Part shown: positions 7,747 to 29,954 of the stretch, piece by piece
Layout: every line of letters begins with the position of its first letter
Position numbering within the stretch: position 1 is the first letter of the stretch
From: Acidobacteriota bacterium
Lineage (GTDB): Bacteria > Acidobacteriota > Terriglobia > Acidiferrales > UBA7541
NCBI GenBank assembly: GCA_003223315.1
Contig: QHYR01000021.1
Span: 1-33,316, forward strand
Direction of reading: 5' to 3'
Length of the DNA stretch: 33,316 bases
Translations under genes and position numbers: made by a program
Notes under the pieces: model-generated
The model's input: the letters and a program-made list of their open reading frames with translations, nothing else
What the model was told of the DNA's origin: nothing
The model's database searches: none

Positions 7747-10700
7747 TCAGCGGACGGATGAACCTGATAGCATTCCACGACTGAGTGCCCGCTCTTTCAT
7801 AAGCGCAAAGAAAACAGGAACCAAAATCAGGACGTGAATCGTTGAGGTGATCATTCCTCCCACGATTGGAGCGGCAATTGGCTTCATTACATCTGAACCG
7901 ATTCCTGTTTCCCAAAGAATTGGAACTAGACTTGCTAGCACTGCGAATACTGTCATGAGTTTGGGGCGAAGGCGCTGAACCGCTCCTTCAATGACCGCAA
8001 CTTCGATGTCCTCACGTTTGAGCGGAGCGCCGGTTGCTAATCGCCGATTAAGCGCCTCGTGCAGATACACAACCATCACCACGCCTGTCTCGACTGCGAT
8101 TCCGAAAAGCGCGATATAGCCCACCCACACGGCCACGCTAAAGTTGTACTTGAGAAGCCATTGGAGGATGAGACCGCCGGTCATCGCATAGAACGTCGGA
8201 AAAACGAGCACCGTAGCTTCTGTGACGGAGTGGAAGACCATGTAAAGGAGCATGAAAATTACAAAGAAGACCATGGGAAGAATGATTTTCAGGCGCTGCC
8301 GTGCCCTCAGTTCAAATTCGTATTCACCGGACCACTGGTATGTGTATCCCGCAGGCAACCACAACTTTTGCTCAAATAGGTTCGAAGCTTGTTGGACGAA
8401 TCCGCCATAGTCCGTGGTGTTCAGATCAACATAAACGTAACCTGTAAGCTGGCCGTCCTCGTCTCGAATCATCGCGGGCCCTCGTGAGAAAGAAATGCTC
8501 GCCACTTGCCCAATTGGGATTTGAGCGCCGGCTGGCGTGGCGATGAGCACGCGGCGAAGCTCGTCTAAGTTGTCGCGGAAGTCGCGCTCGTAGCGCACAT
8601 TGATTGGATACCTTTCGCGGCCTTCTACGTTTTCGGCGACATTCATGCCGCCGATGCCGGAAGACACCGCTGCCTGCACGTCTGCAATGGTCAGGCCGTA
8701 CTTGGCGGCTTCGGGGCGATTCACGTCTACATTTATGTAGAACCCCTGGGACACACGCTCGGCAAATACCGAACGCACTTGGGGCACACCGGACAAAATC
8801 TGCTGCATCTCGGTGCCGAGTTGCTGAATGCCCTCAAGAGACGGACCTTGGATTTTCAATCCGACCGGCGTCTTGATTCCCGTCAAGGCCATGTCCAAAC
8901 GGTTTTCAACGGGCATGGTCCAGGTATTACTTAGGCCAGGAAACTGAAGTTTCTCGTCCATATCCCGGATCAATTTTTCGTAAGTCATTCCCACTGGCCA
9001 TTGCTCACGGGGTTTGAGCATGACGGTTGTGTCGTACATATCCAGTGGAGCGTTATCCGTGGCGCTATCGGAACGTCCAACCGCGCCGAATACCGTCTGG
9101 ACTTCGGGAAACGAGCGGATAATCCGATCCTGTTCCTGCAAGAGTTTGGAAGCCTCGACAATGGAGATTCCGGGCAGAGACGTTGGCATATACAGAGACG
9201 AACCTTCATAGAGCGGCGGCATAAATTGGCTGCCGAGTCTGAACATCAACGGGAACATGAGCGCAAGGAATGCTAGGTTCAAAAGCAGTGTCGTCTTCCG
9301 ATATTTCAAGCAAAGTCGAAGGACGGGCAGGTACAACGCCTGCGTGATCTTCGAAATGGGGTTTTCTGATTCAGGTCGCAGCCTGCCCTTAATGAACATG
9401 AGCATCAATACGGGCACCAGCGTGATGGCCAGCAAGGAAGAGAAACCGACCGCAAGCGTCTTCGTCCATGCCAGCGGCTTAAACATTCGTCCCTCTTGCG
9501 CTTCCAGCAGAAAGACCGGAAGAAACGAGACAACGATAATCACGAGCGAGAAGAACAACGCTGGCCCCACTTGTTTCGCGCCACCAATGAGAACACGCAC
9601 GCGATCCGCCTCGTTCGGAGGTGCGTTTTCGGAAAGGTGACGGTATCCGTTCTCGACCATGACAATCGCGGCATCAACCAAGACCCCAATTGCCAGCGCC
9701 AGGCCGCCGAGCGACATGATGTTCGAACTGACGTGAAGGTAGTACATGGGGATGAACGATGCGACGACAGCGATGGGAAGCGTGATGATGGGAATCAGTG
9801 CAGAACGAAAGTGGAAGAGGAAAATGATAATTACAAGGCTGACGATGATTGCTTCTTCGATCAGGTCGCGCTGCAACGTCTTCATGGATTCCTGAATTAG
9901 ACCAGCACGGTCATATCCGCTAACTACTTCTACTCCGGGCGGCAGGGAGCCCTTGATCTCCTCTAGTTTTTCCTTGACTCCATCAATCACAGTCAGGGCA
10001 TTGAGCCCATATCGCATCACCACAATGCCGCCCACCGTCTCGCCCTCTCCCTGCCATTCCGCAACGCCTTCTCGCATGTCCGGGCCGAATGAGACAAAGC
10101 CGAGGTCCTTGACCAGCACCGGAGTGCCGTTCTTCGCCATCACCGGGACGTTTTCCAAGTCACTGAGAGATTTCAGATAGCCAAGACCGCGAATCATATA
10201 TCGCGTTCCACTTAACTCTAGAACCCTCCCGCCAACTTCGTTCGTGCTGGATTTGACACGGTCAATGACTGTCGAGAGAGGAATTCCGTATGCCAACAAC
10301 TTGTTTGGATCGAGATTCACCTGATACTGGCGAACGAAGCCGCCGATGCTGGCGACTTCGGCGACGCCTGGAACAGTCTCCAACTGATAGCGAAGATGCC
10401 AGTCTTGGAGTGTTCGTAGGTCGGCGAGGCTGTATTTATGCGTGTGATCTACCAGAACATATTCATAGACCCAACCCGCTCCCGTTGCATCCGGTCCAAT
10501 CGCCGGATGCACGTCGGCGGGCAAGCGGCCAGCAATCGTTTGTAGGTATTCGACAACTCGTGAGCGTGCCCAATAGATGTCGGTTCCGTCCTCGAATATG
10601 ACGAAGACATAACTGTCGTTGAACATCGTTTGTGCGCGGACAGCCTTTACGCTCGGAGCAGCGAGGAACGCTGTGACGATGGGATAGGTGACCTGATCCT

Positions 10701-15999: not shown

Positions 16000-16703
16000 T
16001 TGTAACGTCCGCCGATCAGATAGAGCAGAGGAAAGAGATAAATCCAAATTATATCCACGAAGTGCCAATAGAGTCCGGAGACTTCCACGCGATTGTAGTG
16101 TTCGCACGAAATCCTTCCGCGCCAGGCAAGAATCGCCATAACACTCAAAAGGCCGATGCCGATAATCATGTGCAACGCATGGAGGCCGGTCATGAAGAAA
16201 TAAAAACAGAGGAATAACTCGACGGCATGCTCCGGAGCGCCGCGCAACTCTGTCAGGGAGGGATGGAAATTAAGGCCCGGCACCATCTGCTCGTGCCATT
16301 TGTGGCTGTATTCGGTGAACTTCATTCCCAGGAAGGCGATGCCGAGAAGGATCGTTGCAAATAAGAGACCGAGCAGCATCCCGCGCCGGCCGGCGCGCGC
16401 GGCGTGGACGGCCATGGCCATGGTGAAACTGCTGGCCAGCAGCACAAAGGTCATGGCCGCGCCGAGATTCACCTCCAGACCGTGACTTCCGGCTGCAAAG
16501 CCCGGGTAATACAGGGATCGATACATAATGTAGCCCGTAAACACTCCGCCGAAAAACAGCATCTCCGTGGCCAGAAAAACCCACATGCCGAAATTGCCGG
16601 CATCGCGCTGCTGCTCGATATCCTCGAACTGATGGTGCAGTGCAGGGCTGAGATGGCGAGCGGACGGTGCGGCCAAAGGGCTGCTGGCTGCGCTTTCAGA
16701 CAT
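15996..16703 (-). CDS. coxC: cytochrome c oxidase subunit III
   Basis: GMWVFLATEMLFFGGVFTGYIMYRS; FFMTGLHALHMIIGIGLL; YWHFVDIIWIYLFPLLYL. Confidence 0.95.
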   Translation of the reverse strand: MSESAASSPLAAPSARHLSPALHHQFEDIEQQRDAGNFGMWVFLATEMLFFGGVFTGYIMYRSLYYPGFAAGSHGLEVNLGAAMTFVLLASSFTMAMAVHAARAGRRGMLLGLLFATILLGIAFLGMKFTEYSHKWHEQMVPGLNFHPSLTELRGAPEHAVELFLCFYFFMTGLHALHMIIGIGLLSVMAILAWRGRISCEHYNRVEVSGLYWHFVDIIWIYLFPLLYLIGGRYK

Positions 16704-18324
16704 GTGCGCGCTCCGGCTCAGCGTAGCCGTAGGGCTCTTCGGTAATGATCGGCGCCGCTTCGAAATTATCGGTGGGAGGCGGCGATGGCGTCTCCCATTC
16801 CAGGCCTTTCGCGCTCCAGGGATTCGATCCGGCTACGGGTCCATAGCGGATGGACCAGAGAAGATAGACGAATGGAATCAAGTAGCCTACGCCGAGTATG
16901 GGAGGCGCCGGCGGAGGACATCACGTCGAGCACCTGGAACTCCGCGGGATAAACCGCGTAGCGGCGCGGCATTCCCAAATAGCCCAACATGTATTGCGGA
17001 AAAAAGGTGAGATTGAAACCCACAAAAATCACCAGCGCGGCGAAGCGAGCCCAGCCATCGTGATAGAGCCGCCCGGTGATCTTCGGCCACCAAAAGTGAA
17101 TGCCCCCCAGATAAGCCATCACGGCGCCGCCCACCATGATGTAATGAAAATGGGCGATCACGAAGTAGGTGTCGTGCAGATGGACGCCCGTAGCGAGTGA
17201 AGCGAGAAAGAGGCCTGTGAGACCGCCCATGGTGAAAAGTCCGATGAAGCCGAGCGCATAGAGCATCGGCGCTTGATAGGAGATCGAGCCCTTATAGAGG
17301 GTTGCGGTCCAATTGAAAACCTTGATCGCAGAAGGAATGGCCAGCGCAAAACTTAGAGCGGAAGAAATAAATCCGGCGTACACGGATTGGCTGGACACAA
17401 ACAGATGGTGGCCCCAGACCAGAAAGCTGAACACCGCGATCGCCAGGCTCGAATAGGCGATGAAGATATATCCGAAAGGTTTTTTCTTTGAGAAGCAGGT
17501 GACCAGTTCGCTTACGACGCCCATGCCCGGCAGAATCATGATGTAAACGGCGGGATGGGAATAAAACCAGAAGAGATGTTGAAATAGAACCGGATCACCC
17601 CCGATCGCCGGATCGAAAATCCCCACGTGAAAGATTCGTTCAAGTCCCACCAGGAACAAGGCGATGGCAAGCACCGGCGTCGCCAGCACAAAGATCACGC
17701 TCGCGGCATATATGGACCAGAGAAAGAGCGGCATGCGTTTCCAAGTCATGCCCGGAGCGCGCATTTTGTGAATGGTAACGATGAAGTTCAGACCCGTCAG
17801 GATGGAGGAAAATCCCGTAATGAAAACGCCCAGTGCCGTGGTAATAACGTGGGTGTTGAGGTAGTGGCTGCTCAAGGGAGTGTAGAAGGTCCAGCCGGTG
17901 TCCACTCCGCCGGAAATAAGCGCATAGAGCGTGAAGGCCGCGCCCGTGATGTAGACATACCAGCTCAGCAGGTTCAGGCGCGGGAAAGCCAGGTCACGCG
18001 CGCCGATCATCATGGGCACGAGAAAGTTGCCGAGCGTCGCGGGGATGGAGGGAATTAGGAAGAAAAAGACCATGACCACGCCGTGCATGGTGAAAAGCTT
18101 GTTGTAGGTTTCCGGCTGAACCAAAGCGCCGGCTGGCTCGATCAAGTGCAGCCGCATCATGACCGCTGCGGCGCCTCCAATGAAAAACATCAGTGTGATC
18201 GAACCGAGATAGAGCAGCGCGATGCGTTTATGGTCAGTGGTAAAGAGCCAGGATTTGATTCCATAGTTGGCATTCAGGTAGTGAACGCGTGATTCGACCG
18301 GGCCTCCGATACGGCCGTGCTCAT
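16696..18324 (-). CDS. coxA: cytochrome c oxidase subunit I (frameshifted; annotated ORF 16766..18190)
   Basis: [46 protein letters not shown]; the C-terminus continues in another frame ([22 protein letters not shown]...) and the N-terminal [20 protein letters not shown] has no usable in-frame start. Confidence 0.9.
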
Positions 18325-19300
18325 GGCGCCTGCGTCCTTTCTCCCGAAGCGAGCGATTTGATGTAAGCGATCAATTGCAGAATGTGTTCTTCGCTGACTT
18401 GTCCGCGAAACGTAGGCATCACGGGCCGGTAATTTGGCAGGGGCAGGGAAGCGGGATCGAGGATCGATTGACGGACATAGGCTCCGTCCATCACACGATT
18501 CTGGCCGTCTCGCAGCGTCACCTGCTTGCCGAATCTGCCTTGCAGCGCGGGCCCGGCACCTGTTCCGTCTGAAAGATGGCACGTATCGCAACCAAGGCGC
18601 GAAAAGAGCTGCAGGCCCATTTGGGCCATGGATTCGGCGGTGGAATTTTCCCGCAGCCATTGCGCGTAGCCGGTGAGAGACATCACCTCGATTGTTCCTG
18701 TCATTCCCGAATGCAGAGTTCCGCAATATTGCGCGCAGAAGAGGTGATAACTGCCCGGTTTGGTCGCTTCAAACCATTCCGATGTGTAGCGGCCGGGGAC
18801 CACGTCCATCTTCATGCGGAAGGCGGGCACGAAGAAATCGTGGATCACGTCTTCCGAGGTCATGGTCAGGCGTACAGGAACATCCACTGGGATGTGCAAT
18901 TGGTTGATTTCACGCGGTCCTTCGGGATGCTGCAGGTGCCACATCCATTGTTTGCCCACGACGAAGATTGCCATGGCGCCTTGCGGCGACTGCGCGGCGG
19001 CAAAAAAGAGGCTGGCCCCCCAAAGAAAAAGGAATATGCAAATCAGACTGGGAATGGCTATCCCGGTGATCTCCAGCGCCATTGACTGCTGTGTGGCGGG
19101 CGGACGCTCCGCTTCGAGCGCCGGCGATACTTGATCATGAAGTAGAAGATCGTCGCGAAAATTAAGAACGTAAAGAACAGCGCGAGACCGGTGAGGAAAA
19201 AGTACAAATGGTCGACGCGGTCGGCCGAGGTGGAGGCATCCGTCGGCCGAAGCTGCGGCCATTGCGCAATAAAAACTCCGGCGATGAGACTAACGTCCAA
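18321..19300 (-). CDS. coxB: caa3-type cytochrome c oxidase subunit II with fused cytochrome c domain (frameshifted)
   Basis: CuA motif [13 protein letters not shown]-terminal heme motif GCDTCH; the N-terminal TM segment lies in ORF 19058..19300, a different frame. Confidence 0.9.
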
Positions 19301-19327: not shown

Positions 19328-20182
19328 TCAAGCGTCCCGCCTGGGAAGGCCATACTTCTCACGGCGAAATAGAATTGCGATCACGAGCCCAAGAGACAGC
19401 ACAGTCAGCGCGCCCGCAGCCTTGACGACGCGGGAGATCAACAGACCATACTTTCCGGTTGCCGGGTCGTAGTGATAGCAGTAAAGCAAAATCTGATCGA
19501 TGGGAGAGCCGATCCTCTCTTGCGACGCTTCCAGCAATCCCAGCCGCAGATCACGCGAGGGATAACTGATGCCATAGAAATAGCGCACCAGTTTTCCGGC
19601 GTGTGTGAGCAGCACGATTCCGCTGGGATGGGCGAACTGGCCGGAGGCGGAATCGTAGGCGTAACGGAAGCCTGCCGCTTGCGCCAGCATCTTGATCTGC
19701 GCTTTGTCTCCCGTCAGAAAGTGCCATCCTTGCGCGCCGCCGGGCCGGCCGTAGAGTCCGGTATAAAGTTCATGCTTCACGTTCGCGAGGATCGGCCGCT
19801 CGGTAGGATCAATGCTCACCGTCACAATCGTAAAATCCTTCCCGATCTCCAGTGGCAATTCTTTTGCGCTGCGCAAGAGGCCATTGAGCACCTCCGTGCA
19901 CAGCATCGGGCACTGGTAATACACGAGCGTCAGGATGACGGGCTTTTGTCCAAAGAATTCTTGCAGTGCCACCGTGTGGCCGTGCTCGTCGCGAAAAGCG
20001 AGATCAAGGGGAATGTCGCTGCCGAGGTTCTGATCCAATCCGACGTCGCGCAGCAGCGCCGGGCGCAGGCCCGCAGTCTGCACCGGTCTGTCGTCCAGTT
20101 GAGCGTTTGCGGAGCTGACGTCAAAAAGGCTCCCAAGAAACCCGAGTGCGAGAATCGATAAACGGAGAGCTTGCGATTTCAT
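19328..20182 (-). CDS. SCO1/SenC-type copper chaperone
   Basis: LTLVYYQCPMLCTEVLNGLLRSAKELP; thioredoxin-like; located between act and cox genes. Confidence 0.9.
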   Translation of the reverse strand: MKSQALRLSILALGFLGSLFDVSSANAQLDDRPVQTAGLRPALLRDVGLDQNLGSDIPLDLAFRDEHGHTVALQEFFGQKPVILTLVYYQCPMLCTEVLNGLLRSAKELPLEIGKDFTIVTVSIDPTERPILANVKHELYTGLYGRPGGAQGWHFLTGDKAQIKMLAQAAGFRYAYDSASGQFAHPSGIVLLTHAGKLVRYFYGISYPSRDLRLGLLEASQERIGSPIDQILLYCYHYDPATGKYGLLISRVVKAAGALTVLSLGLVIAILFRREKYGLPRRDA

Positions 20183-20640
20183 CGCGCGGATCCTCGTGGC
20201 TGAGGAATGCTCGTGGCGGGGTTTTCATTTTTAGGCAGCGGCGTATTTTGCGGGTTGGCGGCTGAGCGTATTGGTAATCCTCGCTGCAGAAGCAACTCCA
20301 TGGCGCGGTCAATCGGCAGGCGAACGATGCCATTCTGGCGATCGATCCAGCCGTAGCTGTTGAGGAGATTCTGTTGCGATTGGTAATAGTTCTGCAGATC
20401 CTCACGGGGATTTGGCTGAACGCGCGGCGGAGGAGGCAGCGGCCGCTCAGCGGCAAAGGGCGCCGCGACGAAAGATCCTGGATTTTCCGCCTTCTGAAAG
20501 TATTTGAATAGCCAGATCAGCGATAGCGAAGTGGCAGCTAGAATTGCGGCCATAATGAGGGCGAAGTAGAGCAAGCCGCGCGGGCTGGCATCGCTTCTCT
20601 CGTAGCCCTGCGAGCGGGTTGCGTGTGGGCTAGTCGCCAT
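20179..20640 (-). CDS. membrane-anchored hypothetical protein of the ACIII/oxidase locus
   Basis: single TM segment LLYFALIMAAILAATSLSLIWLF followed by LNSYGWIDRQNGIVRLPIDRAMELLLQRGLP. Confidence 0.75.
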   Translation of the reverse strand: MATSPHATRSQGYERSDASPRGLLYFALIMAAILAATSLSLIWLFKYFQKAENPGSFVAAPFAAERPLPPPPRVQPNPREDLQNYYQSQQNLLNSYGWIDRQNGIVRLPIDRAMELLLQRGLPIRSAANPQNTPLPKNENPATSIPQPRGSAR

Positions 20641-21808
20641 GCTGGAGCGCCCCTTCGAATCTGGGGTCGTGTAGAGGCAGTAAGGGCCGGCTCTTGAGTT
20701 CGCGCACAAACGCCGCTATCCAAATTCCGCCCATCCCGGCGGGCAACAGGAAATCAAGCAAATAGAAATGGGGGCCGGCCTTCTCGAATGCAGGGACCAC
20801 CATCCAGTAGATATCCACAAACGTCATGGACGATCAGTGCGCCGCAGAGCACGGAAAATCCACGTGTCGCTTGATCGCGCGCATGAGCAGAAGATAGAAG
20901 GGAATTGCGAAAGAAAAGAAAATCATCATGAGCGCGACGATGGCCCAGCCGCCTTCCGCTCGCGTCACGTACCAGGGGATTTCCTTGGTCAGATTCCCCG
21001 CCCAGATGATCAGGAATTGAGAAAAGGCCAGATAAGCCCAGAGCATTACGAACGTCAGGACCAGGTTCCCAAGATCGTTGAAACGGTCCGGCGTGATTGC
21101 AGCGGCGACGGGTTCGCCCTGGGAAAGCAGGCCCGCCACCAGAATGGACAAAGCGAGCGCGCCGAGCACCTGCAGGACCATGAAGATCATGCCGAAAATT
21201 GTGGAGAACCAGTGCGGCTCGAGAGACATGATCCAGTCAATGGAAAAGAACGTCACCGTAAGGCCATAAAGCACCAATCCCGGCCCACTCAAAGTTTCCA
21301 GACGTCCGGCCAGTGTTGGATCACCGGTACGGTCCTGCTCGTCTGACCAGCGGTTCAGCCGGCGCGCTAAAACCCACCACACCGCGAAATAGATCACATT
21401 GCGAATGAGGAAAAACGGCAAGTTCAAATAAGGCTGCTTGAATTTGAGAGCGGTATCCGCAGCGACAAGGGTTGGATGTGTCCAGGAATACAGGCGGCCG
21501 AGCCCGAGCAGGAGTGGAAGCGCAAAAGCGGTGAGCAGCGGCAGAGTGCGCGTGCCTGCTTCCAATGGGCGACGAATCGGCAATCCCCAAAGTCCGCCGG
21601 TCAAGTGGTGCACCATTAAAAATGCGGCGCAGCCGAGCGGGAAGCCGAGCCAGAAGCCGAGCCAGAAGCCGAGCCAGAAGACAAATGCCAGCAGGTAGGA
21701 ACGGAAGAATTGCTCGGGTGCGCGAATCCCGTCGAGCACCGCGAGGATGAGCGCGGCGATTCCCAGAATCAGGGCGCGCTTCTGGGATGAGATCGAATCG
21801 AGGGCCAA
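20630..21808 (-). CDS. actF: ACIII quinol:cytochrome c oxidoreductase subunit ActF (split by frame lesions)
   Basis: ORF 20834..21808 plus C-terminal fragment 20630..20827 (MTFVDIYWMVVPAFEKAGPHFYLLDFLLPAGMGGIWIAAFVRELKSRPLLPLHDPRFEGALQHGD). Confidence 0.85.
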
Positions 21809-21823
21809 GCGCGTCGGTTGCCG

Positions 21824-22435
21824 TCATGGTTGCCCCGTGAGCGCGCGGCTCTGCGATTCGGGAACGTCCGCCGTCGAGCCGTGCGCGCTGAATTGCAATG
21901 CCCGGATGTAAGCGGCGATGCGCCAGCGATCCTCCGGCGAAACTCGGGAGGCATAGCTGTACATAAGCCCCAGGCCATTGGTCATCACGTCGAAGAAATG
22001 CCCGGCGGGAGCCTGCCGCAGGCGTTCTAAGTGAAACGAAGGCGGCGATGGAAATCCGCGTTGCACGATCATTCCATTTCCGCTGCCGGTGTAATCGTGG
22101 CAAGGCGAACAGTAGATGTTATACCGCTCGCGTCCGCGGCTCAGTTCAGCAGAAGTGATGGGGAAGGGAAAAAGATCTTCGACAACGCCGTTGATCCTGC
22201 CGGTATAGAGAAACTCGTCGGTGCGCAATTGGCCGCGCGCCACGGTTCCCTCGACGGGCGGCCGCGCGGAACGGCCGTCCGCAAAAAAAGTGCTGGGGTC
22301 TTCAGGTACGTACTTGGGCTGGACGTGCATGTCCTGGCGGCAGCCGGCGAGCCAGAGGGCAGAAAAGATCACGCACGCCCGGAGCGCTGGCCTCGAGGCC
22401 GGCAAGGATTTGCGCGATTTAGACTTCGGCTTCAT
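21824..22435 (-). CDS. actE: ACIII cytochrome c subunit ActE
   Basis: lipoprotein-like leader LWLAGC; heme motif YNIYCSPCHDYTGSGNGMIVQRGFPSPPSFH. Confidence 0.9.
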   Translation of the reverse strand: MKPKSKSRKSLPASRPALRACVIFSALWLAGCRQDMHVQPKYVPEDPSTFFADGRSARPPVEGTVARGQLRTDEFLYTGRINGVVEDLFPFPITSAELSRGRERYNIYCSPCHDYTGSGNGMIVQRGFPSPPSFHLERLRQAPAGHFFDVMTNGLGLMYSYASRVSPEDRWRIAAYIRALQFSAHGSTADVPESQSRALTGQP

Positions 22436-22955
22436 AGACGCCAAATGGTTTGAGGCTTTCCAGAAATTGTCGGGTAGCGCCCATATCGAATTTCTTGTCC
22501 CGCGCCTTGATGCACAGGAAAAAGCGTCCCCGCGTGACCAAGGCAAAGCGTGGCACATTGAAAAGCGGGTGATAAGGTGTCGGCAAACCATTCATCGCCA
22601 GCATTCCGAAGGTGGCCGCCAGCGCCGCGCAGAGAATCGTTAACTCGAAGGTGATCGGAATGAACGCGGGCCAGCTATTGAAGGGCTTCCCGTCCACGTT
22701 CAAGGGGAAACTCAGGACGTTCGCATACCATTGAAGAAAAAAGTCGCCTGCTGCGCCGAACATCCCTGCGAACAACACGATCAGAGGAAGTCGCGTGCTA
22801 CGGAACCCCACGGCTTCCGCCAGCCCTTCTACCGGCATGGGCGAGAAAGCATCGATGCTGCAATAACCGGCCTCTCGCGCGCGGTGGGCGGCGTCGAGAA
22901 GCTGGTCCGGGCTCTCGAATTCCGCAACTAATCCGTAAAGGCGCTTATTGGCCAT
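22419..22955 (-). CDS. actD: ACIII subunit ActD (DUF3341-like)
   Basis: LYGLVAEFESPDQLLDAAHRAREAGYCSIDAFSPMPVEGL and two TM segments. Confidence 0.92.
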   Translation of the reverse strand: MANKRLYGLVAEFESPDQLLDAAHRAREAGYCSIDAFSPMPVEGLAEAVGFRSTRLPLIVLFAGMFGAAGDFFLQWYANVLSFPLNVDGKPFNSWPAFIPITFELTILCAALAATFGMLAMNGLPTPYHPLFNVPRFALVTRGRFFLCIKARDKKFDMGATRQFLESLKPFGVYEAEV

Positions 22956-22990: not shown

Positions 22991-25985
22991 TCAGGTAGCT
23001 GAAATCTCCGGGTTCGGATTCCTCAACTTTGCTAGATATGTAGTTCGCGGCCGCGTATTGAGTTCCGCCAGCAGGCTATAATCACGCGTCTGGCGCTTTA
23101 GCTTGGAAACGCGGCTGTTCGGATCATTGGATGTTGCCAAAGATGATCGCTTCGGTCGGGCAGGCCTGCTGACATGCGGTCTGGATCTCGCCATCGCGCA
23201 CGAGGCGGTCCTCTTTTTCGGCGTTGATTTTTGCTTCGTTGATCCGCTGCACACAGTACGTGCATTTCTCCATGACTCCACGGCTGCGCACCGTGACGTC
23301 CGGATTGCGTAGGCCATAGAGGCTAGGGGTGACCCAATCTGAGTAGAGTTTGAAATTAAAACGCCGCACTTTGTAGGGGCAGTTATTGGAGCAATAGCGC
23401 GTGCCTACGCAGCGGTTGTAAACCATTTCGTTAAGCCCTTCCGAGCTGTGAAGAGTGGCCCCAACCGGGCAGACGAGCTCGCATGGCGCCTGCTCGCAAT
23501 GCATGCAGGGCACCGGCTGAAAATAGGTTTCCGGGTTTTCGAGGCCTACGACGCAGGCTTCGCAACCCGTGCAGCGGCTCAGGTCGATAGACATGCCCCA
23601 GGCATATCCTTCGTACTTATATGGCTGATAGAGCGAAAGACCCTTCGCGGCTTCTTCCTCAGCGTCCTTGGCAAATTGCGGATTCTTGCGAAAGTCCTCG
23701 AGCGTGGCAATGCGCACAAGGTTTCGTGCGAAGGCATTCTCGCTCTCTTCTTCGACCTGCTGATTATTGTGCTCAATGGGATGATGAATCTGCGTCGCCG
23801 CCATGAGATAGTTCTGGCCCGTTTTTTCAATCTGAAGGCCGTTCGCGATCGCCAGCCTTGAGGACGTGCGCAGAAGATATCCATTCAGGCCGAAGCCCGT
23901 GCCCACGTGTCCCGCGCGCCTGCGTCCGTATCCCAGCGTAACCGTCGCCGAATTGTCGGCGTGCCCGGGAAGGGCCCACACCGGCCCGGTAGCCTTCCAG
24001 CCTCCGATATTCAGATTGACCACGTCGCCGGTCGTGAGGCCGAGGCGCCAAGCGGTTGCGGGGCTGAGTGCCACCGCGTTATCCCAGGTGCTCTTTGTGA
24101 GTGGTTTGGGTAGTTCTTGCAGCCAGCCGTTATTGGCCCAGCGGCCGTCGCCGATCGTGGGATCGGGCCGGAAGACTACCTCGATGGATTGTTGATTCAC
24201 CGCCGGCGGCTCCGGCGATTTGCCGTAATCGAGGCCCAGCTTGGGTGAAAGCGCGGGAAGAGCAGTGCCCGCCATCACGCCGTCGTGTAAAGTTTGTTCC
24301 CAGAAAGTCTCGAACGGTTCCTTGGAAGACTGCGAATGTTGCGTTCTCCAGTAATCGCGGACCAAATCGTGATCGGATTTTCCGGTGTCGCCTGTGAACA
24401 GCGCGACCAGCTCATGGAGCGATCTGCCGTGATAGAGCGGAGCGATGAGCGGTTGCACGATGCCTACGGTGCCGTCGTACGCGCGAGCATCACTCCAGGA
24501 TTCCAGAAAATAAGCTTGGGGAACGTGCCAATGACACAGTGCAGCAGTTTCATCGTCGTAGAGACCGCAATGAATGCGCAGCGGCACCTTAAGGAGCTGC
24601 TGCGCGAACTGCAGATCGGCGGGCGCGGTGAAGACGGGATTGCTGCCGAGAATGAATAGTGTCGAGACTTGCCCTGCTTCAATCTCTTTCGCCAGTTCCG
24701 GCAGGGAATCGTTTTCAGGGCTTAGTTCGATAGGTTCGGTATAAACGACGGTTGGGCCGCCGTTCCCGAGTGCCGCATTCATGGCATGGGCCAGGGCGTG
24801 CACCGCGGCGGGTTGCGATGGGCCCGCAAGCACCAGCGACGCGCCGCGATGGCTTTGCAGGTCCCGCAAAACTGCTTTCAGCCATGAATCCGGAACGGCT
24901 GAGCCGGCGCTTTGCACTGGAAGCCCAAGAGCGGCGGCCAGAGCCCGAGCGAAATTCTCGATTTCACCGCAGCGAATGGGGAGCCGATGATCCGCCATCG
25001 CACCGCTAATCGAGGGCGTACTCTCGACGACGTAGAGGCGATTCATCTCCGCGCGCGGCGTCTCGATTCCGCGCCAATTCGCAAAATCACGCGCGTAGCG
25101 GATACTGGCTGCGCCATCGTTGAGGAAATCGCAATCGAGAGAAACGACGACGGCGGCCCTATCGAATCGATTGACTGGATTCACATTGCGGCCAAAGGCG
25201 AGCCGTGCACCCTGATGTGCCGCGTAGTTGCCGCAGGGTTCGTGCGTATACCACCTTGCATTCGGGAATTGCGCGAGCAGGGACCGCATTTGCACAGCAA
25301 ATGTCGGTGATGAGGTGGTTTCGGTCAGGATCCGCAAGCCCGCGCCTTTTGTGCTGGCCAAAGTGGCGCGAAGATCATCGGCCATGGCCAGGAATGCCGG
25401 CCAATCGCTGATGCGTCCTTCGCGCAGGATCACCTGCGAGCGGTCCGGGTCCCAAAGCGTAAGCACCGAGGCCTGGCAGAAAATGTTGCTGGCTCCCAAA
25501 CTCCCCGGATGATCCGGATTTCCCTCCACTTTGGTGGGCCTTCCCATGTGGCTTTCCACGAGGAGACCGACGGCCACGCCACGCTCCGCCATTGACGTGG
25601 CGTAAAAAAGCGGCTTGCCGGGAATGACCTCTTCAGGGGCGCGTACGTAAGGGACAATCTTCTCGGTCGGTAATTTCGTGCAGGCGGTGAGTCCGGAAAG
25701 CGCCGCGGAGGCGGCCATCAGCTTCAGAACCTCGCGCCTGTTCAGCCCGTGTTTGGCGGCCTTCGGTTCTTTCTCTGGATCGTTGGGAAATTCATCGTGC
25801 AGGAATCTCTGATATTCGGGTGTGCAGGCAAGTTCGTCCATGCTGCGCCAGAGGCGCCTGGTGCCCTCGCGCTTGAGCTTCGCGGCGATCGCCGCAAAAT
25901 CCATCGTTCTCGATTCCGAAGGCATGTGGCTTAAACGATTCGATAGCGGTTCGCCCGAAGGAATGCTTGCCGTCAGCGGTGGCAC
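22991..25985 (-). CDS. actB: ACIII subunit ActB, molybdopterin-like plus ferredoxin domains (1-nt frameshift and internal deletion)
   Basis: [19 protein letters not shown]-type leader region, [52 protein letters not shown]; frame change at about 23129 into [44 protein letters not shown]; start probably 25925 or 25904. Confidence 0.93.
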
Positions 25986-26623
25986 GTCCAGCAGTCCGTG
26001 AGCGAATAAATTTTGTATTCCCTCACCAGCTTTGTACCGAGCTCCAGTTGATGCGCGGGTGGCTGATAGGAAATGCTGAAAACGTCATTCTTCGGCCGCA
26101 CATTATTTTCCGGATGCCGGTGGCAATCGAGGCGCCAGGACATCTTCAGCGAGTTCTCCGCCCAGGTAAGGGGCATGGCCCCGATGGGGCCATGGCACGT
26201 CGTGCAGCCGATCCCCTTGGCCACGTGGATGCTGTGGTCGAAATAGACAAACTCGGGCAGAGCATTCACCCGCACCCATTCGATCGAGCGATCCTCCCGA
26301 AAACTTTGGCGAACGGGCTCCAACATCGGGCTGTTTTTCCAGATTTGGGAATGGCAGGTCACGCAAGTTTCCGTCGGCGGCAATCCCGCAAAGGAGGAAT
26401 TCTCGACCGAGGTGTGACAGTAGCGGCAGTCGATTCCCAGCTCCGCGGTGTGATGCTTGTGGCTGAAAGGCACGGGCTGCACTTTTGGCACATTGGCTTC
26501 GGTGACGTAGGGCGAGCCGTCGATCCAGTACGGAATAAAGCCACCCACAATCACCAAGAGAAAGAAGCCGTAGATGGTGAGCCGCGAAATTAAGTTCGTG
26601 CTGTGATGAAAGACCTGCGCCAT
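25973..26623 (-). CDS. actA: ACIII multiheme cytochrome c subunit ActA (4 intact CXXCH motifs)
   Basis: CRYCH, CVTCH, CTTCH, CWTCH and a degenerate RLDCH; PVPFSHKHHTAELGIDCRYCHTSVENSSFAGLPPTETC. Confidence 0.93.
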   Translation of the reverse strand: MAQVFHHSTNLISRLTIYGFFLLVIVGGFIPYWIDGSPYVTEANVPKVQPVPFSHKHHTAELGIDCRYCHTSVENSSFAGLPPTETCVTCHSQIWKNSPMLEPVRQSFREDRSIEWVRVNALPEFVYFDHSIHVAKGIGCTTCHGPIGAMPLTWAENSLKMSWRLDCHRHPENNVRPKNDVFSISYQPPAHQLELGTKLVREYKIYSLTDCWTCHR

Positions 26624-26647: not shown

Positions 26648-27118
26648 TTATCTCCTTTCCCCCTCTGTCTCCGTAACAAGGCTTCTCATTTCAAAAATCG
26701 AGATCATCGGCAGGTAGCGGATGAACAGATAGATCAGCGTCAGGAAAAGTCCCACCGATCCGAAAAGCGTCATCCAGTCCCATCTTGTCGGCGCGTACAT
26801 GCGCCAGATGGAAGGCACGAAATCGCGGTGCAAACTGATCACCACAATGACAAAGCGCTCCAGCCACATGCCGCAGTTCACGATCAATGCCACTGCGAAG
26901 AGCAGCGGGGCGCTGGTCCGCACGCGGCGCGACCAGAGCGCCTGCGGAATGACTATGTTGAAGGCAATCAGAGACCAGTAGACGGCCGCATAGGGGCCAC
27001 CCATGCGGTTCAGCGTGACGTACCTCTCGTAGATGTCGGCGCTGTAGAACGCCATAAACGCTTCCATCATGTAGCCGTAGGCCACAATGAGTCCGGTCGC
27101 CAGCATGATCTTGCCCAT
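26648..27118 (-). pseudogene. actC: C-terminal fragment of ActC (NrfD-like quinone-interacting subunit)
   Basis: MGKIMLATGLIVAYGYMMEAFMAFYSADIYERYVTLNRMGGPYAAVYWSLIAFNIVIPQALW...; begins abruptly; in-frame upstream codons run into TGA six codons before the ATG. Confidence 0.85.
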
Positions 27119-27159
27119 ATGGACTCGAAGATTTCATCACCACGCGGCATCTGGACAAC
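27119..27159 (+). pseudogene. inverted ActC micro-fragment (encodes GLEDFITTRHLDN on the opposite strand)
   Basis: + strand tat gga ctc gaa gat ttc atc acc acg cgg cat ctg gac aac = YGLEDFITTRHLDN, the motif expected immediately before MGKIMLATG in ActC. Confidence 0.75.
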
Positions 27160-27268
27160 GATTGCCCCTAGCTAACTCACTTTACGGACCCTCCGGGGAT
27201 AGAATAGTGGGTCGGCGGCAATTCCTGTGCCCTAGCCGCATACTCATTTCCATCTCGCCGGAGTCAGT

Positions 27269-28573
27269 GTGAGCGCGGAGCGACAGAGCAAGCTCGACTG
27301 GATGGATGTACTTTGGCTCTTGTTCTTGCTGGGATTAGCCCTGTTGCCCCCGGTCCGCGAGATCCACAAGCAACTCATCCTCGTGGCCATCGGCATCCTC
27401 CAGCTTTTGGAGGGCCGACTCCTCGAGCAACTGCCGAAAAGAGGCCGCAGCTATGCGGTGCTGTTAAAGATTCTGCTGGCCATGCTCCTGATCAGCCATA
27501 CCGGAGAAGTAGGCATCAACAGCAGTTATTACCCCATTCTTTATCTCCCCATTGTGACTGCCGCGGTCTATTTCGACGCGTGGGTGACGCTTGGGTGGAC
27601 TCTCCTCGCCTCGGCCGCTTACTGCTCTTACCTCTTACTAGCCCTGCAACAGGAGTATGAACTCGCCCCGGGTGCCGAAGCGGAATTGGCGCTGCGCATC
27701 TTGTTCTTCTTTCTTGCGGCCATGGTGGTCAATCGGTTCGCCACAGAGAATCGGCGCCAGACGCGGCGCTATCAGATGCTGGCGGAGCAATTTGCAAAAA
27801 CGAATCGAGAACTCCAGCAAGCTCAGGCAGAAGCACGCCGTTCCGAGCGCCTCGCTGCACTAGGCCAGCTTTCCGCGGGTTTGGCGCACGAGATTCGCAA
27901 TCCATTGGGAATCATTAAAGGTTCGGCTGAAATGCTGAATCAACGAATCCAAACTGCGGAACCTCTGGCGGCCGAACTGGCGGGGTACATTTCCACGGAG
28001 GTGAATCGCCTCAGCGCCCTGGTGAGCCGTTTTCTCGATTTTGCCCGGCCGCTTCGTCTCGAGGCGAGAGAGTGCGCGGTTCCCGAAATTGTGGATCGGG
28101 CGCTCCGCGCCGTCGCCGCCAATTGGAATGGGCCCGAGGTTAAAGTCGAGCGCCGCTACGAGAGAGAGCTGCCGCCAGCAGCGGTCGATGAGAATCTCTG
28201 CGAGCAGGTGTTCGTCAATCTCATACAGAACGCTTACGATGCCATGAGCGAGACCGTCGGCCGGCTGCGCATTTCGATCGCTCTTGCAGCGCGAGGCGAG
28301 CGGAGGGGCATCGAGGTGCAAGTGCTGGATTCGGGGCCGGGAATCCCTCCTGAGCTTCGCGAACAAATCTTCAATCCTTTTTTTACTACCAAAAAAAGCG
28401 GCGTGGGCCTGGGTCTTTCCCTCGTGTCCAAAATTGTGGACGAACATCGCGGGTCTATTGAACTTCTCGGTGGCCAGCGGACCGGGGGAGAACCCGGCGC
28501 TTGCTTCGTGATCTTCCTGCCGCTGGCGGAACAGGCAGTCGTTCCTGAAGCGGAAGCGGCATCCAGGGCTTGA
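27269..28573 (+). CDS. membrane sensor histidine kinase (NtrB-like)
   Basis: GTG start; N-terminal TM segments; LGQLSAGLAHEIRNPLGIIKGSAEML; GSGPGIPPELREQIFNPFFTTKKSGVGLGLSLVSKIV-type ATPase motifs. Confidence 0.93.
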   Translation: MSAERQSKLDWMDVLWLLFLLGLALLPPVREIHKQLILVAIGILQLLEGRLLEQLPKRGRSYAVLLKILLAMLLISHTGEVGINSSYYPILYLPIVTAAVYFDAWVTLGWTLLASAAYCSYLLLALQQEYELAPGAEAELALRILFFFLAAMVVNRFATENRRQTRRYQMLAEQFAKTNRELQQAQAEARRSERLAALGQLSAGLAHEIRNPLGIIKGSAEMLNQRIQTAEPLAAELAGYISTEVNRLSALVSRFLDFARPLRLEARECAVPEIVDRALRAVAANWNGPEVKVERRYERELPPAAVDENLCEQVFVNLIQNAYDAMSETVGRLRISIALAARGERRGIEVQVLDSGPGIPPELREQIFNPFFTTKKSGVGLGLSLVSKIVDEHRGSIELLGGQRTGGEPGACFVIFLPLAEQAVVPEAEAASRA

Positions 28574-28577
28574 GCGC

Positions 28578-29954
28578 GTGGCCGCCATTCTCATTGTCGA
28601 AGATGAAGCTCGCATGCGCCGGCTGCTGGAGCTGGACCTCAGCGAGGCCGGATATCAGACATTCTCCGCTGCCGATGCGGAGAAAGGTCTGGACCTGTTG
28701 CGCCGCGAGCCGATCGATCTGGTGCTCACCGATTTGAAGCTGCCGGGCCTGGGCGGGCTGGAATTCCTTCAAGCCGCCAAGCGCCTCAATGGGGCTTTAC
28801 CGGTCGTGGTCATGACGGCTTACGGCTCAGTCGAAACCGCAGTGGAAGCCATGAAGGCCGGGGCCAGCGACTATGTGTTGAAGCCGTTTTCCCTCGCCGA
28901 AATGCGCTTAGTGGTGCAAAAGGAATTGGACGTTCGACGCCTGCGGGAGGAAAACCGCAGCCTGCGAGAGGCGCTGGGACGGCAGTACAACCACCCCAAC
29001 ATCGTCGCACGCAGCGCGAAAATGCAGGAGGTACTGGCATTGGCGGAGCGCGTCGCGGCGACTCTTTCCACGGTACTCATTGGCGGGGAGAGCGGCGTGG
29101 GAAAAGACTTGATCGCACATCTGATTCACCAGCGATCCAGCCGCGCGTCATGGCCTTTTGTGAAGATCAATAGCACGGCGATTCCGGAGAATCTGCTCGA
29201 AAGCGAGCTTTTTGGCTACGAGAAGGGAGCTTTTACCGGGGCCACAACGAGCAAGCCGGGGAAGTTCGAGCTGGCCGATAAAGGCACGCTCTTTCTCGAT
29301 GAAATTGGAGATATACCTCCGGCCATACAGGTCAAGCTCCTGCGCGTCTTGCAAGAACGCGAATTTGAGCGACTGGGCGGCACGCGCACGATCAAGGTGG
29401 ATGTGCGCCTCATCGCAGCCACCAATCGCGACCTGCGCGCTGCGCTGGAACAAGGGACGTTTCGCGAAGATCTTTATTATCGGCTCAACGTCGTGCCCAT
29501 CGATATACCGCCTCTTCGCGAGCATAAGGAAGACATTCCCGATTTAGTGAATCTCTTCCTTGCGCGCCTCGCGCAGAAATCGCAAAAGAAGCTAGACGGC
29601 ATCAAGCCCGAAGCTCTCGGAAAGCTTATGGATTTTCACTGGCCCGGCAATGTCCGGGAATTAGAGAACATTATAGAGCGCGCCTGCGCGCTGGCTGCGG
29701 GGCCCTTCATCGGACCGGGCGACATCCAGATGGATCACGTGCCCGACCGAAACCACGTTGGGTCGGCCGCCCTCTTGCCCGAAGGCAAAACGCTCGACCA
29801 GTGGGAGGATGAAATGATTCGCGAGGCCTACCGCCGTGCCAGCGGAAACAAAAGTGAAGCAGCTCGCATGCTTGGTCTTTCCCGCAATGCACTGCGCTAC
29901 AGACTGGAGAAGATCGGCATCGCCGACGAATCCTCGAAAACTCCGCAAGAGTAA
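28578..29954 (+). CDS. sigma54-dependent response regulator (REC-AAA+-HTH, NtrC-like)
   Basis: REC domain LIVEDEARMRRLLELDLSEAGY; GESGVGKD; GAFTGA; C-terminal Fis-type HTH NKSEAARMLGLSRNALRYRLEKIGI. Confidence 0.96.
   Translation: MAAILIVEDEARMRRLLELDLSEAGYQTFSAADAEKGLDLLRREPIDLVLTDLKLPGLGGLEFLQAAKRLNGALPVVVMTAYGSVETAVEAMKAGASDYVLKPFSLAEMRLVVQKELDVRRLREENRSLREALGRQYNHPNIVARSAKMQEVLALAERVAATLSTVLIGGESGVGKDLIAHLIHQRSSRASWPFVKINSTAIPENLLESELFGYEKGAFTGATTSKPGKFELADKGTLFLDEIGDIPPAIQVKLLRVLQEREFERLGGTRTIKVDVRLIAATNRDLRAALEQGTFREDLYYRLNVVPIDIPPLREHKEDIPDLVNLFLARLAQKSQKKLDGIKPEALGKLMDFHWPGNVRELENIIERACALAAGPFIGPGDIQMDHVPDRNHVGSAALLPEGKTLDQWEDEMIREAYRRASGNKSEAARMLGLSRNALRYRLEKIGIADESSKTPQE

Follow-up and report, generated by a model that had tools for sequence, protein, structure and literature searches.

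Probable recent pseudogenisation of an alternative complex III-cytochrome oxidase operon in an acidobacterial genome, with actC broken by a deletion and a microinversion

The operon for an alternative complex III (ACIII) and a cytochrome oxidase in this Acidobacteriota genome has, in our reading of the sequence, recently become a pseudogene cluster, and its actC gene appears to have been broken by a single event that combined a deletion with a microinversion; we give this interpretation a probability of about 0.72. The operon lies in the window, by which we mean the whole stretch of 33,316 nucleotides that was analysed, the complete contig 198 of a 4.3 Mb host genome that is assembled in 381 contigs and ~91% complete. 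It consists of actC-A-B-D-E-F, sco, coxB, coxA and coxC, and the ACIII gene set includes a two-domain ActB, a multihaem ActA, ActD and the NrfD-like ActC and ActF, of which the last two were recognised through their intact relatives (Table 1). Judged from alignments with G003 and G001, two congeneric genomes, the break in actC is not isolated: this respiratory operon has suffered several recent breaks, of which the one in actC is the largest.

What is left of actC is a minus-strand open reading frame of 156 amino acids that begins with MGKIMLATG and represents the last 156 of the 459 residues of ActC, its C-terminal third, with 92% identity over the entire length of the remnant to the intact proteins of G003 and G001. 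The truncation to a C-terminal part had been recognised in the initial annotation, and the comparison bears it out. The search for ActC covered 61 genomes, with a full-length match in the same two relatives; the Pfam profile NrfD_2 gave zero matches, controls included, so NrfD and protein queries were used instead. The full-length ActC of the relatives matches the ActC chains of solved ACIII structures (8k9e_C, E 8.6e-184; 6lod_C; 6f0k_C; 6btm_C). A complete ActC with its quinol site is absent from the locus, where the in-frame remainder comprises codons 304-459. The quinol-site residues of the Rhodothermus marinus protein are His139, Asp169 and Asp253 (PMC5928083), and among the codons lost here are those for His138, for Asp168 and for a conserved Asp further on, all located before residue 303.

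Table 1. Features of the operon and its flank in the window, with identities and lesions relative to the same-genus genomes G003 and G001
Feature	Coordinates	Strand	Observation
coxA, damaged	16699..18316	-	1-bp deletion ~18302 just past start; 1-bp insertion ~16900
coxB, damaged	18321..19300	-	1-bp deletion ~19110, ~codon 62 of 326
sco-like gene, intact	19328..20182	-	82% identity to G001 over 279 aa
actF, damaged	20630..21820	-	+1 ~21784 near start; -4 ~20858; +1 ~20822
actE, frame intact	21824..22591	-	76% identity to G001 over 219 aa, without stops
actD, intact	22419..22955	-	Pfam ActD E 2.9e-62; no indel
actB, damaged	22991..25985	-	99-bp in-frame deletion ~23550; 1-bp insertion ~23129
actA, multihaem cytochrome c, intact	25973..26623	-	96% identity to G003; no indel
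actC remnant	26648..27118	-	codons 304-459 of ActC plus stop; 92% identity to C-terminus of intact 459-aa ActC of G003 and G001
actC piece flipped in place, codons 290-303, 42 bp	27118..27159	+	inverted, 37/42 bases identical to the flush 42 bp at the syntenic place in G003 and G001; junction base T common
Histidine-kinase gene leader, remaining part; right side of deletion	27160..27268	+	aligns with G003 contig 31 ~10500-10610
Histidine kinase gene, intact	27269..28573	+	87% / 84% identity to G003 / G001; no frameshift
Sigma-54-type response regulator gene, intact	28578..29954	+	94% / 92% identity to G003 / G001; no frameshift

Directly abutting the remnant, the plus strand at 27118-27159 translates as YGLEDFITTRHLDN, and the intact ActC proteins read LEDFITTRHLDN (G003) and LEDFITMRHLDN (G001) just before MGKIMLATG. 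The reverse complement of this segment agrees at 37 of 42 positions with the 42 bp just before MGKIML in each of the two relatives (blastn E ~5e-8), and because the inverted match is syntenic and exactly flush, chance is excluded. An in-place inversion of a 41-42 bp piece of actC, as had been proposed from the window alone, is thus confirmed by the homologues. Against G003 contig 31, the window is collinear up to 27118 (G003 9390), continues with G003 9391-9432 in the opposite orientation, and then regains collinearity, certain from 27171 (G003 10514) and probable from a few bases before that, within the leader of the histidine kinase gene. Some 1.07 kb of the G003 sequence is missing from the window, namely actC codons 1-289 and ~200 bp upstream of the start. 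This alignment substantiates the loss of the N-terminal part in an event with several breakpoints, and the unrelated sequence past the inverted piece is, as suggested, the histidine-kinase leader, with the GTG of the kinase at 27269. The left breakpoint can be placed to the exact base, its junction sequence being CCCA-TATGGACTC with a single T common to both sides, which amounts to 1 bp of microhomology; the right junction sits in the diverged leader. No flanking inverted repeats were noticed by eye in the sequence of the relatives, and when the whole window was compared with both of them on the minus strand, every match other than 27118-27159 was palindromic or due to chance.

Both same-genus relatives with this operon have an intact actC in the corresponding position. 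The genome-wide search for a full-length actC or the missing N-terminal part, which the initial annotation had recommended, found neither in the rest of the 91%-complete assembly, the best other match being a 42% paralogue on contig 55, although ~9% of the genome lies outside the assembly and an intact copy there could be missed.

The same annotation had described actC as displaced upstream of actA. The usual slot between actB and actD does hold only 35 bp, measured from the end of actB at 22991, its frameshift read through, to the start of actD at 22955, and in 53 of the 63 loci with a located actC the gene occupies the actB-actD interval, a distribution that would suit a relocation of actC within this genome with breakage on landing. 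Such a relocation is nevertheless scarcely credible. The remaining 10 of 63 loci have actC upstream of actA and include both same-genus relatives, in which the gene is intact, and, within the genome collection, the nearest ActA relatives; the order in G003, G001 and one Acidobacteriota clade is actC-actA-actB-actD. The ActC tree has 65 rows, of which the 13 with actC first fall into one group (support 94/91; one change versus a shuffled mean of 12). Because actC comes first in both relatives and these loci form a single group, the upstream position is an old trait of the clade and separate from the break, which did not displace actC. The arrangement seems to have had a single origin, within an acidobacterial clade; the loci of this Acidobacteriota group are L033, L035, L037, L038, L043-L046, L054 and L116. 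A third genome of the genus, G002 (73% complete), showed only an operon of ~69% DNA identity, with actC between actB and actD.

Within the operon, the damage extends beyond actC. When aligned with G001 and G003, coxA, coxB, actF and actB together showed seven window-specific frameshifting indels, and actB in addition the 33-codon deletion. This deletion joins CTGCEACV straight to GLENPETYF, so that the last Cys of a CxxCxxCxxxC motif is lost; the iron-sulfur cluster motifs of ActB are not intact, since the 33 residues that follow CTGCEACV are gone and the next Cys is among them. The insertion nearer the end of actB shifts its last 49 codons, the 4-bp deletion in actF brings a premature stop, with 324 aa in the open frame versus 391, and the insertion in coxA shifts the last ~67 codons, the latter being seen against G001 only, as the G003 contig ends before this point. 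The frameshifts and the loss of the cluster Cys fit an operon that is no longer maintained. The frame of coxC is intact. A window-specific insertion of 24 bp, composed of 12-bp repeats, was also observed in actF at 21641-21665, where WLGF is repeated in the protein. An apparent CoxB-CoxA fusion in G001 was resolved by the lists of minus-strand open reading frames and dismissed.

We also considered the possibility that sequencing or consensus errors in one poorly covered stretch produced the indels and that a chimeric molecule produced the actC junction. The indels at 21784 and 23129 lengthen short G runs, as such errors might, and MDA-type chimeras typically consist of inverted sequence with a deletion in between (PMC1855051). 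Most of the indels lie outside homopolymers, however, and the lesions end at the operon. Frameshifts were absent from ~9.7 kb of other genes in the window, the kinase, the regulator and a FecR-like gene included, and also from genes totalling ~18.5 kb on contigs 21 and 199, for which G001 and G003 again served as the references; in these ~28 kb of control genes, 0 frameshifts were observed versus ~18.6 expected at the rate of the operon. Where control genes showed in-frame stops, these sit either at the gene ends or close to the starts, ahead of what is probably the true start. A chimera would furthermore have to be the sole form in a 33-kb contig, with the deleted sequence in no other contig, and the original orientation is regained 42 bp later, so that two coordinated chimeric joins would be needed. 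An amplification or assembly chimera as the source of the actC junction is accordingly disfavoured, because independent lesions cluster in this operon only, among the genes tested, and because the deleted sequence is absent elsewhere in the assembly; we consider the combination of errors and a chimera unlikely, though it deserves some weight.

Part of that weight comes from the substitution patterns. For the operon genes without actC, the ratio of nonsynonymous to synonymous codon changes (N/S) was 127/345 on the window branch versus 59/194 and 106/272 on the branches of the relatives, and for the actC fragment it was 3/13 versus 4/17 and 6/22. Relaxed selection on the window branch was not seen in these counts, N/S being no higher than in the relatives, and an unchanged N/S is also expected from sequencing errors. 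As the values are near those of the relatives, purifying selection must have acted for nearly all of the branch, which leaves either recent decay or erroneous lesions as explanations; that the lesions are clustered argues for decay, which would then be recent.

In the control regions, the order of genes on contigs 21 and 199 was strongly shuffled relative to G001 and G003, with matches of 1-3 kb scattered across many contigs. One gene on contig 21 (L129, 17257-18407) matches residues 5-343 of a 705-aa frame in G003 and is fused to the end of the homologue of the next frame, a junction that suggests another deletion in this genome.

A different view of the remnant is that the operon still functions in a reduced form, with the 156-aa fragment serving as a mini-ActC that uses MGKIML as its new start. 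The fragment does begin with ATG, is open to its stop codon and has the N/S of 3/13 given above, and actA, actD and actE are intact. Against this, the quinol-site residues are in the lost half, the catalytic oxidase subunit and ActB are broken too and the upstream region is deleted, and we therefore regard a functional mini-ActC as very improbable.

Under the pseudogenisation that we favor, four blocks A-B-C-D would have been converted to A-B'-D through three breakpoints, B being the 42 bp that were turned round directly at the left break. The gene would have lost everything from codon 303 back to ~200 bp before its start, the 42 bp at the inner edge being kept and flipped in place. One route may have been short-range template switching, a single accident in which the replication fork moved briefly onto the opposite strand and rejoined ~1 kb away; another may have been end joining, in which broken ends were joined with a small fragment turned round. 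The sequence is compatible with either of these routes, and a Ku protein is encoded in the genome (contig 64). ActC would have lost its entire quinol-binding half, and the operon its upstream region, presumably with the promoter; it is because of these losses that the complex is predicted to be unable to work.

A second, divergent ACIII cluster was identified on contig 55 (L040, 2-2506), where it starts at the contig edge and comprises the end of actB, an intact actC of 465 aa and an actD-like frame. Pieces of a second cytochrome oxidase are present on contigs 243 (L164) and 278 (L165), with cox1 cut by the contig ends; the former holds the cox1 C-terminus with two coxC-like genes and the latter the cox1 N-terminus together with a coxB-like gene. 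Some Acidobacteria are known to have branched chains and several oxidases (PMC8407424). Electrons could have been rerouted through the second ACIII and the second oxidase encoded elsewhere, and the cell has probably abandoned the electron-transport branch described here. A tentative hypothesis, which we think rather less likely to be right than wrong, is that the lineage has been caught discarding a whole ACIII-oxidase branch and that one fork-based template switch gave both the flip and the kilobase deletion.

The locus resembles the systems of ActABCDEF with a caa3-type oxidase in Rhodothermus marinus (6f0k) and Flavobacterium johnsoniae (6btm) in having homologues of actA-F beside sco and cox genes, and the ActC of the relatives matches the solved ActC chains end to end. 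It differs from them in that this clade has actC at the head of the operon, upstream of actA, and in that actC, actB, actF, coxA and coxB are damaged in the window. As in the pseudogenisation of other redundant bacterial operons, independent frameshifts and deletions are confined to one operon while paralogous systems are found elsewhere, but a signature of relaxed selection is missing, so that the operon would have been caught early. The in-place flip of a short segment, the 1-bp overlap at one junction and the adjacent loss are shared with microinversions that have a flanking deletion, whether these come from short-range template switching (PMC7954356; PMC8755829) or from end joining with an inverted fragment; the present case differs in being bacterial, in the lack of inverted repeats noted above, and in being a single event in the window.

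A decaying operon with a small complex rearrangement is an ordinary kind of finding, here well resolved in sequence. The locus documents an actC-first operon order as well as a complex rearrangement on a small scale in the chromosome of a bacterium, and if the template-switch reading is true, short-range template switching in bacteria would gain a clean natural example. For acidobacterial respiration, counts of the presence and absence of act and cox genes would score this locus as present despite five broken genes.
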